Below, piece by piece: positions 40,324 through 44,756 of a DNA stretch of 64,000 nt. Both the position numbers and the translations under genes were made by a program. The stretch is from positions 1 through 64,000 of the forward strand of contig JANXED010000004.1 of NCBI GenBank assembly GCA_025058175.1, written 5' to 3'. The notes beneath the pieces were generated by a model that had not been told where the DNA came from, did no database searches, and was given only the letters and a program-made list of their open reading frames with translations. The stretch is from Candidatus Calditenuaceae archaeon (lineage in GTDB: Archaea > Thermoproteota > Nitrososphaeria_A > Caldarchaeales > Calditenuaceae). The number at the start of each line of letters is the position of its first letter. The stretch's first letter is position 1.

Positions 40324-41029
40324 CGAGCTGGTCCTCGGCCTGATGGCCTTGTCGCCGGCGCTATACATGCTGGCGGCCACAGTCGTCGAGACGAGGTGGA
40401 CCCTGTTCTCGGCGCTCGGGTTCATCTCCCTCTCCACGACCATGCTCCCAGCGAGGATGCAGTCCCTCACCCTCGCGCTGATCTACGCCCCCGCGCTCTA
40501 CGCGGTCTACGACCTGGTCGCCTCCAACAACCTGTACCTCCTCGACCTCGCGGGGGGATACGTGGTCTCCCTTCCGGTCCTGATCGTGGCCTCGGCGCTG
40601 CAGGCGAGTTCGGTCGCGGGCCTCGTGGGGGCGTACGTCTCGTCGGTCCTGGTCTCGATGGTCGGCCTCTTCGGCGCCGAGATCTCGAAGGGAAACCCGC
40701 GGGCCTTGCTCCACGCGCTCATCTCCTCCTTCCTGAGGGGGCAGGAGAGGGAGCTGGGCGCGGTCGATCCCTCGCTGCTCGCGCCGGTGGTGCCGCTAAT
40801 GGCCGTCTCCCTGATATCGCTCCTGCTCTTCGCCCACCATAGGCTGGGGCTGAGGTCCGAGTCCCTCTACGGGACGCTGATCAAGTCCGGGGCGGCCTCG
40901 GTGGCCCTGCTCGCGCTGATCGTCTACTACTCGGCTGTCTTTCCAGACGGCGTCGCGGCCGGGACGCTCGCGGTCGCGCTCGTCGTCCTGTTGGGTGGTG
41001 CGTATGCGGCGGTCGCTGCTAGGCGCTGA
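40313..41029 (+). CDS. Polytopic membrane protein of the MoxR-DUF58 operon
   Basis: 238 residues, GTG start, about seven hydrophobic helices covering nearly the whole sequence and ending in AVAARR. No recognisable motif. It overlaps the DUF58 gene upstream and the secreted protein gene downstream, which suggests a membrane complex assembled with MoxR's help. Confidence 0.65.
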   Translation: MRASELVLGLMALSPALYMLAATVVETRWTLFSALGFISLSTTMLPARMQSLTLALIYAPALYAVYDLVASNNLYLLDLAGGYVVSLPVLIVASALQASSVAGLVGAYVSSVLVSMVGLFGAEISKGNPRALLHALISSFLRGQERELGAVDPSLLAPVVPLMAVSLISLLLFAHHRLGLRSESLYGTLIKSGAASVALLALIVYYSAVFPDGVAAGTLAVALVVLLGGAYAAVAARR

Positions 41030-42545
41030 GCTGCTGATCGTCGCGGTCCTGCTCTCGGCGCCCTTGCCGGCCGCCTCCCAGGCCACCGAGCCCTGTGCGC
41101 TGCTGGTCGGATACGGAGGTCAGGGGTTCCTGCCCTTCGTCGACGGGGGCGCCCTGAACTTCGCGGTCGGCGAGCGGCTCCACGTCCTCACCCCGGCAGG
41201 GGGCGCGACGGTCCAGCTGATCGACCCGCGAGGCAGGGTCGAACGTCACGAACTCGCAGGAGGGATTCAGACGAGGCTGAAGGAGTTCGGGCGCGGCGAC
41301 GGAGGCGTCTGGAGGCTGGTATCCGGCGACAGATGTGAGATGACCTTGACGGTCTCGGAGAGGGGTTCGGTGATCTACGGCGAGGTCGTGGTGGAGAAGG
41401 ACTTCAGGGGCGCGATCGTCCTGAGCATCAGGGGTCCGCCCTACATCGGCTTCAGCGTGGAGGAGCCGAGGGACGACAGGAACGTCCTCTGGACGAGGCC
41501 GGGCGGAGAGCTGCTCCTCGAGCTCGGGAGGCCCATCAGGTCGGTCGTCGTCTACCTGCTCTACCCCGACCGCGTGACGATCTCCGGTAAGGTTGGCGAG
41601 ACGCCGTTCACCTACACGATCGATCCGCTGGTCGGCGTCTACAGGTACGAAAGGCCCGTGAGGGGGACGCAGGTCCCGGTGAGGCTGCCGGAGCTCGGGA
41701 GCGTCGGCCCGGGCGGTACCTTCCCCCTCAGGTACGGCACTTACACGCTGAGGGTGATGGGGACGGCCCCCGACGGCCAGCAGTTCTCGATGACGTTCGC
41801 GGTCGAGGTCGCTCCCTTCGCGTTCAGGGCCCCGAGGCTCTCGACGTACTTGGTGACTGACGTCGACAAGTTGAGGGAGGGGATAAGGCTGGTCTTCCTG
41901 AACTACGAGACCGGGACCGTCGAGTCGATCGCCCTCAAGGTGCCGATGTACGAGGTTGTGGTCCTCGACGAGAGGACCGGCCAGCCCATCGAGGACTACT
42001 CGCTCTCGGTGGAGGGGATGATCGGCGTTAGGGACGGGGCCGCCACCGTGCTCCTCCCGAGGAGCTTCGACCTGCGAGAGGTCCAGGTCGGCGAAGACGT
42101 GCTGAAGGTGAAGCCGTCTCTGATCATCGAGGGCGTGAACTTGACCGGCGTGGTCCGCGAGGTCATTCTGAGGAGGGGCGAGCCGACCGTCCTGAGCGTC
42201 CCGATGTCCGAGGTCCAGCTCAGGGTCAGGCTCGCGGGTCACCAGGATGCCATAAGGGCCAAGGTCTCGCTGAACGGCTCGACCCCCCTTGAGCTCGAGG
42301 GCGCCGCCCGCATCAGGTTGCCGGCCTACCTTTACAACGCGACCGCAGAGACGCCCTGGGGAAGGGTCGGGGGGCTCTTCGACGCCTCCAGGGAGAGGGA
42401 GGTGGAGCTCGTCGTCTACGCGCCGACCGACCTGACGCTCGCTCTGGCCTTTGCGGCCGCCGCCCAGCTCGCGGTTCTCGCGGCGATCTCCTTAAGAGCC
42501 TACAGGGCCGGGTCCCGTCACAGGGTTAAGAGCGAGTCAGGATGA
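41004..42545 (+). CDS. Secreted beta-rich protein with C-terminal membrane anchor (MoxR-DUF58 operon)
   Basis: 513 residues from the ATG at 41004. A signal peptide (about 1-26, ending APLPAASQA) leads to a long beta-rich ectodomain, probably several Ig/carboxypeptidase-regulatory-like repeats. A single transmembrane helix (about 475-500) and a basic tail end the protein. No catalytic motif. The gene overlaps the upstream membrane protein by 26 bp. The operon resembles in outline the bacterial Bat-type MoxR-DUF58-surface protein sets, but the ectodomain is not recognised. Confidence 0.65.
   Translation: MRRSLLGAELLIVAVLLSAPLPAASQATEPCALLVGYGGQGFLPFVDGGALNFAVGERLHVLTPAGGATVQLIDPRGRVERHELAGGIQTRLKEFGRGDGGVWRLVSGDRCEMTLTVSERGSVIYGEVVVEKDFRGAIVLSIRGPPYIGFSVEEPRDDRNVLWTRPGGELLLELGRPIRSVVVYLLYPDRVTISGKVGETPFTYTIDPLVGVYRYERPVRGTQVPVRLPELGSVGPGGTFPLRYGTYTLRVMGTAPDGQQFSMTFAVEVAPFAFRAPRLSTYLVTDVDKLREGIRLVFLNYETGTVESIALKVPMYEVVVLDERTGQPIEDYSLSVEGMIGVRDGAATVLLPRSFDLREVQVGEDVLKVKPSLIIEGVNLTGVVREVILRRGEPTVLSVPMSEVQLRVRLAGHQDAIRAKVSLNGSTPLELEGAARIRLPAYLYNATAETPWGRVGGLFDASREREVELVVYAPTDLTLALAFAAAAQLAVLAAISLRAYRAGSRHRVKSESG
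42524..42532 (+). promoter_or_regulatory. Promoter of tRNA-Ser
   Basis: GGTTAAGAG, inside the last codons of the preceding gene, is centred about 29 nt before the first base of the tRNA at 42557. Confidence 0.45.
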
Positions 42546-42556
42546 CTCTCCGCAGA

Positions 42557-42670
42557 GCCGGGGTCCCATAGCGGCCATTGGGGCGGCCTCGAGATCGTGA
42601 AGGGTCTGGCCGGAACGCGAAAGCCGCTGCCCCCTCGGGGGGCGCGCGGGTTCGAGTCCCGCCCCCGGCG
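42557..42670 (+). tRNA. tRNA-Ser (CGA), with intron
   Basis: Acceptor stem GCCGGGG (42557-42563) pairs with CCCCGGC (42663-42669); G42670 is the discriminator. D-stem CCCA/TGGG. Anticodon stem GCGGC (42583-42587) pairs with GCCGC (42623-42627). The loop begins C-T-CGA-G, giving anticodon CGA at 42590-42592. A long variable arm with a 6-bp stem (GCCCCC/GGGGGC, 42629-42643) marks a class II tRNA, fitting Ser. T-arm GCGGG-TTCGAGT-CCCGC is at 42646-42662. No CCA is encoded. About 28 nt between positions 37 and 38 are excess and form an intron. Confidence 0.9.
42594..42621 (+). other. Intron of tRNA-Ser(CGA)
   Basis: About 28 nt inserted at the canonical archaeal site between tRNA positions 37 and 38, inferred from perfect pairing of the anticodon stem on either side. 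A perfect bulge-helix-bulge could not be drawn by eye, so each boundary may be off by 1-2 nt. Confidence 0.7.
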
Positions 42671-42774
42671 TTCTTAATAGACGAGTACAAAGTATCGCGC
42701 CCGCAATTGAAGCACGATGGTCTACAGAAATGATATTGACGATGTGAGGATGGTTACATGTTGAGTGGAGTGAA

Positions 42775-43484
42775 ATGATGGGGCCTGACTTCCGCGAGCT
42801 CACCGTGGAGGACCTCTTAGGCCAACCGCTCAACGGATATGAGCGCAAACACGCGCCAAAGAAGCTTTACCTGACCGGGACGTTGAGGGTCCCATTCGAA
42901 GCTCCGCGAATATCAGTAGTGGGAACTAGGTCGCCGAGTCGCGTGGGGGTCACGTTCACCCGTGAGTTGGTCAAGAGGCTCGTTGAGAGGGTGATCATCG
43001 TGGTGAGCGGGCTGGCCAGGGGAATCGACACTGAGGCCCACACGACCGCAATCGAGTCCGGAGGTCAGACCGTCGCCGTGCTAGGGACACCTCTCGACAG
43101 GTTCTAACCCCCGAGAACCGAAAACTGCAGCAGCTGATCATGGAGAAACACCTAGCGGTGAGTCAGTTCCCCTTCGGCCACAAGACGCATCGCTCTGACT
43201 TCGTCAAGAGGAACAGGACGATGGCTTTGATCTCTGACGCGACGATCATCGTCGAGGCCGAAGACGGAGGAGGGACTCTGTCGCAGGGATGGGAGGCGAT
43301 AAGGCTCAAGAGGCCTCTGTCTCTGGCTCCCTTCCTTCTCGAGAGGCGGGACTTGAAATGGCCCGATCGAATGCTCGACTACGGGGCTGAAGTCTTGAAC
43401 CTAGAGAACATCGAGGAGATCTGCGAGACCTTGCCGCTGTATCCAACCTCCAAATATGAAGACTTGCTCGCCCTTCTGAAGTAG
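42775..43484 (+). pseudogene. DprA/Smf-like SLOG-domain gene, frameshifted
   Basis: The first frame (42775-43107) encodes a DprA-type Rossmann (SLOG) N-half: SVVGTRSPSRVGVTFTREL, VSGLARGIDTEAHTTAIE and VAVLGTPLDRF, then TAA. The second frame continues the family sequence directly: PENRKLQQLIMEKHLAVSQF, then RNRTMALISDATIIVEA and GTLSQGWEA. The join is at about 43105-43110, where one missing base in the expected F-Y-P-P-E-N-R sequence explains the break. Restored, it would be a protein of about 236 residues. DprA-type SLOG proteins bind ssDNA or nucleotides; in archaea, which lack classical competence, they often appear in mobile or defence contexts. Base composition is clearly lower in GC than the neighbours. 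Confidence 0.8.
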
Positions 43485-43489
43485 CAGGG

Positions 43490-44142
43490 TTGATTGGTGA
43501 GATTAGCAGGCTCCCGTTTGGCCCACTTTGGTCTTGGACTAACAAACCGACAGACGAAGAAGGCCACAAGGCTAAAACACTTTGCTACGCCCTCAAGAGA
43601 TATCAAGTCTTCAACAAAGATTTAGATGCGATTAAGATGGCGGTCGATAGCCTTGACTCTAGGATGGGTTCCCTTCCCTTCAGCGACTTCTTCTCTGGCG
43701 AGGTAGCCCTAGTTCCCATTCCAAGCAGTAAACCAACGAGGCCAGACGATGTATGGGTATCCCGGGACATCTGCGATGAGATGGAAAAGAGGGGATTGGG
43801 CCTCAAGTTAGAGTTGTTAAAGCGGGCGTATCCAATTAGGAGGTCATCCCTCAGTCCTCCGGGCGAAAGACCTTCGCCTATAGAGCATTACAACTCTATG
43901 AGAGGCAGAAAGATCGAGCGAATACCCACAAGGGTCATCCTAGTGGATGACGTGATAACAAAAGGGCACACGATGCTCGGCTCTGCTTAGAGAGTCATAG
44001 AGTTATACCCTAAAGCAGACATCCGCGGATTCGCTGTCTTCAGGACAATAAGCAACACCTCGGAGTTCGTACGGATGGATGACCCGGTAAAGGGCGAAAT
44101 AATTTACGATCCCGAGTTAAGAACTGCGAGGAGAATACCGTG
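43490..44142 (+). pseudogene. ComF-like phosphoribosyltransferase gene with in-frame amber stop
   Basis: TTG start at 43490, 6 bp after the dprA-like gene. The N-half has a ComF-like layout (VALVPIPSSKPTRPDDVW) and the PRPP loop RVILVDDVITKGHTMLGSA. A TAG at 43988-43990 follows immediately. The same frame then continues sensibly (RVIELYPKADIRGFAVFRTI and on to RTARRIP) to a TGA at 44140-44142, as in intact homologues where an alpha-helix follows the PRPP loop. The full protein would be about 216 residues. Codon use (TTA, ATA, AGA, CAA) and GC differ from flanking genes. It ends 2 bp before tRNA-Trp. A sequencing error or suppressed stop cannot be excluded. Confidence 0.72.
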
Positions 44143-44144
44143 AA

Positions 44145-44241
44145 TGGGGCCGGTGGGATTCGAACCCACGACCTGCGGGTGACCTCTGACCAGCGATCTG
44201 CACCTGGAGCCCGCCGCCATACCTTGCTAGGCCACGGCCCC
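44145..44241 (-). tRNA. tRNA-Trp (CCA), with intron
   Basis: On the minus strand the acceptor GGGGCCG (44241-44235) pairs with CGGCCCC (44152-44146) and A at 44145 is the discriminator. D-stem GCC/GGC. Anticodon stem GCGGG/CCCGC, loop C-T-CCA-G ... A, giving anticodon CCA at 44207-44205. Variable loop of 5 nt; T-arm GTGGG-TTCGAAT-CCCAC. No CCA encoded. 23 nt between positions 37 and 38 are intron. Confidence 0.93.
44181..44203 (-). other. Intron of tRNA-Trp(CCA)
   Basis: 23 nt at the canonical 37/38 position, inferred from the perfect anticodon stem. It is far shorter than the tRNA-Trp introns of some archaea that carry a box C/D guide RNA, so no guide function is expected. Confidence 0.8.
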
Positions 44242-44357: not shown

Positions 44358-44756
44358 ATGGACTACACCGAGACGATCGACGAGATCCTCGACCACTACA
44401 GGAACCCCAGGAACTACGGTGAGCTCCCGGACGCGACCGTGAGGGCGAAGGACTCGAACCCGCTCTGCGGCGACGTGATCGAGATGTCCCTCAAGATCGA
44501 GGGGGACAGGATCGTCGACGTGAGGTTCAGGGGGAAGGGATGCGCGATAAGCCAGGCCTCGGCCTCGATGCTCACCGATCGGCTGAAGGGCATGACCCTG
44601 GACGAAGCGAGGTCCTTGAACCGGGACTACGTCCTCGGGATGCTGGGGATTGAGCTGAGCCCCGTGAGGGTGAAGTGCGCAACTCTAAGCCTCAAGGTGC
44701 TGAAGCTGGGGATCTACTCGTACCTGGGGAGCTCCACGAAGGACCTGGAGGTCTAG
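44358..44756 (+). CDS. IscU/SufU-type Fe-S cluster scaffold protein
   Basis: 132 residues. The three cluster-ligand cysteines are present in NPLCGD, GKGCAISQAS and RVKCATLSL, with the SufU-like spacing between the second and third. The N-terminus YTETIDEILDHYRNPRNYG is typical. It assembles Fe-S clusters for transfer to apoproteins. No cysteine desulfurase or SufBCD gene is in the window. It follows tRNA-Trp divergently. Confidence 0.9.
   Translation: MDYTETIDEILDHYRNPRNYGELPDATVRAKDSNPLCGDVIEMSLKIEGDRIVDVRFRGKGCAISQASASMLTDRLKGMTLDEARSLNRDYVLGMLGIELSPVRVKCATLSLKVLKLGIYSYLGSSTKDLEV

Follow-up and report, generated by a model that had tools for sequence, protein, structure and literature searches.

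A low-GC insert between two tRNA genes of a Calditenuaceae archaeon is very probably a recently inactivated ShosTA-family toxin–antitoxin module

Does a short stretch of unusual composition between two tRNA genes in a Candidatus Calditenuaceae archaeon encode a working conflict system, and how did it come to lie there? We addressed this question in a stretch of 64,000 nucleotides (the window), which is contig C81 of a fragmentary 933-kb genome bin (G000) that is 57% complete. The tRNA-Ser(CGA) gene (positions 42557–42670, forward strand) and the tRNA-Trp(CCA) gene (44241–44145, reverse strand) both match the Rfam tRNA model and, as the original prediction had it, contain introns, which measure 28 and 23 nt, respectively; with ARAGORN at its default setting, in which introns are off, no tRNA was called. 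The intervening 1474 bp (42671–44144) have a GC content of 53.1%, the lowest among 1251 sampled windows of this length within the 64 kb (mean 64.1%, s.d. 2.7%). Third-position GC is 0.745 in the dprA-like gene and 0.566 in the phosphoribosyltransferase (PRTase) gene of this stretch, compared with 0.87–0.94 in the flanking genes. Both the low GC content and the deviant codon use that had been predicted were accordingly confirmed, and the predicted distance of 2 bp between the insert and tRNA-Trp was corrected to a 1-bp gap after the PRTase stop codon (44141–44143). The left neighbor (40995–42545, forward strand) is kept beside tRNA-Ser(CGA) in three relatives (G001, G002 and G003), and the right neighbor (44358–44756, forward strand), named an IscU/NifU-like scaffold gene from its sequence without a profile, is syntenic with tRNA-Trp in the sister species G002.

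Both genes of the insert are broken. The dprA-like frame opens at 42775 and hits a TAA at 43105–43107, after which coding resumes in the –1 frame (about 43104–43484), so that the shosA-like pseudogene spans 42775–43484 on the forward strand. Alignment with intact relatives of the same order located the lesion, one base fewer, within the conserved D-x-F-Y-P-P-E-N motif. The two halves match the PADLOC ShosA profile (PDLC03961) at 4.5e-33 and 3.2e-26, and a weaker match to the PsyrA profile was also obtained. The PRTase frame runs from about 43490 to 44143 on the same strand, with an in-frame TAG at 43988–43990; it matches the PADLOC ShosT profile (PDLC03962) at 1e-15, and the alignment shows that it retains the PRPP-binding motif VDDVITKGHT. 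At the position of the TAG, same-order relatives (G001, G008, G021 and G027) encode Trp and the codon of the sister species G002 is TGG; the lesion in the window is a TGG-to-TAG nonsense mutation. Because TAG terminates the neighboring scaffold gene, it is a normal stop here, and its use as a sense codon was ruled out. The identities of the predicted genes therefore stand and their intactness does not: given the frameshift in shosA and the nonsense codon in shosT, single-base lesions that could be assembly errors in such an incomplete bin, we regard the window copy as a pseudogene copy of the ShosTA family and not as a working system. For the window itself, the value of this result lies mainly in the annotation of two pseudogenes.

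The assignment to ShosTA (PDLC03961/PDLC03962; PDB 8zvb, 8zvc, 8zvd and 9vzo) is based on a DprA-fold gene followed on the same strand by an adjacent PRTase gene with a PRPP-binding motif, and on profile matches for both genes, as predicted for a DprA/SLOG and PRTase conflict module; the window copy differs from ShosTA in that both genes are broken. Intact relatives score higher than the window copies on both profiles. Across the phylum, the ShosT profile alone is uninformative, as general PRTases match it in 277 of 300 genomes. In the 12 best genome hits, which belong to Bathyarchaeota, Nitrososphaerota, Aenigmatarchaeota, Planctomycetota, Bacteroidota and Pseudomonadota, the shosT-like gene, whole or broken, lies directly downstream of the shosA-like gene on the same strand, and the pair is present in plasmid and viral records too. 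The ShosA profile matches PDB 9vzo, ‘DprA-like antitoxin protein ShosA’, and an AlphaFold model of the ShosT of a relative (pLDDT 93.7) matches ComF and the solved ShosT structures 8zvb, 8zvc and 8zvd. However, the archaeal ShosT is about 217 aa long, compared with about 400 aa in the solved chains.

Similar pairs have been characterized in bacteria. The DprA and PRTase defence system of P2-like phages, which protects E. coli against T7 and lambda (Rousset et al. 2022, PMC9122126), resembles the present one in its two components and in its carriage by a tailed virus, as in a relative described below, whereas here the host is an archaeon, protection against viruses would be a presumed function and the copy in the window no longer sits in a viral genome. 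In RqlHI and PsyrTA, a DprA-like protein restrains a PRTase-domain toxin (PMC4670107), and the same partnership of a DprA-like antitoxin with a PRTase-containing toxin would apply here; in RqlH, however, the PRTase is joined to a helicase domain of the RecQ type, which the present shosT-like gene lacks. ShosTA calls in Asgard archaea have already been published (PMC11291487). The module in the window is accordingly the relic of an established type of system and not a new one, and it documents a bacterial-type toxin–antitoxin/anti-phage pair in this archaeal group.

We considered whether the pair might be functional, or might serve a different purpose. If both lesions were assembly errors, a working ShosTA would stand at a tRNA hotspot; the bin is fragmentary, the conserved motifs are kept in the frames apart from the two lesions, and the end branch of the window ShosA in the tree is short (0.069). 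However, two independent lesions lie within 1.4 kb, and the sister species, from a separate assembly, shows decay at the locus too, which makes a functional pair quite unlikely. Programmed recoding, that is, a ribosomal frameshift in shosA and TAG readthrough in shosT yielding full proteins, is scarcely credible. Another shosA-like gene (G233:C62) does break in the same part, but there a different single base is lost, within an A-rich run, and the toxin gene is absent, by which a programmed frameshift was ruled out; moreover, reading through the shift in the window would replace the conserved Y-P with other residues, a plain open frame is already seen in relatives of the family, and the TAG is a normal stop where the sister species has TGG. 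A role in DNA uptake, with the two genes as DprA and ComF homologs acting in transformation, draws on the shared fold of each protein and a weak sequence likeness to both, and is nevertheless highly improbable. The intact relatives fall far below the curated NCBIfam cut-offs (139–155 bits for dprA with a cut-off of 191, and about 20 bits for comF with a cut-off of 234), whereas the ShosA and ShosT profiles fit, and unlike the competence genes they form a tightly linked, co-encoded pair that is found on mobile elements, including plasmids and viruses.

We then asked where relatives of the module occur. ShosA is patchily distributed in the phylum (28/300 genomes, 16/127 genera), and its loci are unrelated. 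In the tree, the window copy groups with the copy of a same-family archaeon (G008) and with a shosA remnant of the same genus (G003), the latter being a short sequence on a long branch, within a well-supported clade mostly of the same order (99/99). The G008 pair (loci L294 and L065; G008:C9, about 72200–87200), in which shosT is frameshifted, lies inside a tailed provirus between the tape-measure and terminase genes, downstream of the head-protease, major-head, adaptor and minor-tail genes. The G003 remnant (L299; G003:C16:1–18000) is on a contig with an integrase, directly downstream of an MCM-like ATPase gene; the GC content of this contig is 47.8%, compared with 58.0% in another contig sample, and the contig is probably a mobile element. 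This contig also carries a MoxR-like/VWA gene pair. In addition, the pair of G216 adjoins type I restriction genes, and in the higher-GC genomes G001, G008 and G021 the GC content of the pair is below that of its flanks. An archaeal tailed provirus and an integrase-bearing contig are thus carriers of the pair, and proximity to defence or mobile genes holds for these relatives but not for the window, where no mobile-element genes remain at the locus. Because of these contexts and the low GC content relative to the flanks, mobile-element transfer is the likely source of the module. We rejected the idea that the pair is generally enriched next to tRNA genes, as an informal count found a tRNA gene close by in few loci only (G021 and G094).

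The same locus was then compared among close relatives. In the sister species (L286, G002:C16), the tRNA-Trp, scaffold and AAA genes are syntenic with the window, but tRNA-Trp and tRNA-Ser are 384 bp apart, and all that is left of the same shosT gene between them is a 3′ remnant, with a junction to tRNA-Trp identical to that of the window. In the other family relatives in which tRNA-Trp was found, no PRTase-like gene lies beside it. The locus is therefore variable, as had been anticipated, and an intact and syntenic pair common to all close relatives, which would have spoken against an insert, was looked for and not seen. The tRNA-Ser beside the remnant in G002 is the GGA isoacceptor and not CGA. 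In G002 (L288, G002:C39) and G003 (L289, G003:C26), the left flank of the window and tRNA-Ser(CGA) are followed by a different gene, which is the gene that follows tRNA-Ser(GGA) on another contig of the window’s own bin (L290, G000:C48) and which we take, from the way it reads, to encode an aminoacyl-tRNA synthetase. In yet another relative (L104, G001:C3), two frames downstream of tRNA-Ser(CGA) read, by eye, like a toxin–antitoxin-like HEPN/nucleotidyltransferase pair.

The synteny of the left flank with G002:C39 and G003:C26 stops at the tRNA-Ser(CGA) gene of the window. The alignable sequence exceeds 10 kb on the left flank, runs without a break for about 13.5 kb on the right and exceeds 8 kb on the side of C48, and all three alignments stop at tRNA-Ser genes or at the adjoining remnant; upstream of tRNA-Ser(GGA), the G002 contig stops after 235 bp. 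The downstream flanks of tRNA-Ser(CGA) and tRNA-Ser(GGA) are thus exchanged between G000 and G002/G003, for which recombination between the two tRNA-Ser genes is the simplest reading, and because G002 and G003 agree, the rearrangement would be derived in G000. This provides a case of two tRNA-Ser genes swapping their downstream flanks. A misassembly at the tRNA-Ser edge is possible, but it presupposes two false joins that match each other, both at repeats of about 33 bp.

These observations bear on the suggestion that the pair is cargo integrated at tRNA-Ser or tRNA-Trp by an integrase. The site between two tRNA genes, the foreign composition, the drop in identity that coincides exactly with the tRNA-Trp gene and the integrase on the contig of the G003 remnant are all consistent with such an element. 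However, in agreement with the original prediction, a search of the window’s own bin (57% complete) for a tyrosine integrase (PF00589) gave no match, and neither a copy of either tRNA 3′ end at the locus nor an att-like direct repeat joining the two insert edges was found. With these negative results, and with recombination of two tRNA-Ser genes accounting for the insert edge at tRNA-Ser, we consider tRNA-directed integration unlikely.

The 3′ end of the shosT pseudogene (43959–44144) displayed a different pattern. These last 186 bp are 93% identical to G002:C16 (L004), compared with 71% for the part of shosT just before, 83% for the scaffold gene, 80% for the AAA gene and 57–60% for intergenic stretches. 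Across about 25 kb of synteny with G002 (mean 75%), no other stretch of 186 bp is as well conserved as the tail, and the next highest value outside the locus is 88.7%. Only 5 of the 62 third positions of the tail differ, whereas the flanking genes differ at 210 of 500 (Fisher’s test, P = 2e-8); the differences within the tail show no third-position bias, and therefore protein-level constraint does not account for its conservation. A non-coding RNA was considered and rejected, as no Rfam match rose above noise and folding of the two strands gave non-significant z-scores of –1.5 and –1.6. No further copy of the block was found in 61 genomes except in G002. Simple vertical decay does not explain the identity of the tail, and the most economical reading is a recent short-tract exchange between the lineages, anchored in tRNA-Trp. 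There is a slender chance that the tail, directly 3′ of tRNA-Trp, has come under selection for a function of its nucleotide sequence, such as in the processing of tRNA-Trp or as a site of recombination; its top conservation in about 25 kb, even though it encodes no whole protein, would then be accounted for.

Taken together, the insert is very probably a recently inactivated ShosTA-family toxin–antitoxin/anti-virus module. In its working form, the DprA-fold ShosA would be encoded just upstream of ShosT, a small PRPP-binding PRTase, and by analogy with characterized relatives ShosA would restrain ShosT. Infection or foreign DNA might then disturb ShosA, upon which ShosT would attack nucleotide or DNA metabolism and the infected cell would stop. 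Lineages of the module appear to be carried by archaeal viruses and by elements with an integrase, and one copy may have stayed behind in the chromosome, between a tRNA-Ser and tRNA-Trp, before the divergence from G002 or at about that time. Decay would have followed, through the shosA frameshift and the shosT nonsense mutation, and recombination of two tRNA-Ser genes would have swapped the flanks, so that the module now stands behind tRNA-Ser(CGA).

Finally, we compared the state of the two genes across archaeal loci. Both genes are damaged in the window, G003, G233:C62 and G263. In six loci (G008, G017, G104, G147, L161 and L162) shosA is intact and shosT is broken or missing, and the reverse was seen in none (sign test, P = 0.016, or P = 0.031 with G104 and G147 counted once, in a comparison that omits contig-edge cases and was chosen after the loci had been seen). 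This tendency is suggestive and fits a toxin–antitoxin pair, and these loci may provide a natural record of module death in which the presumed toxin goes first.
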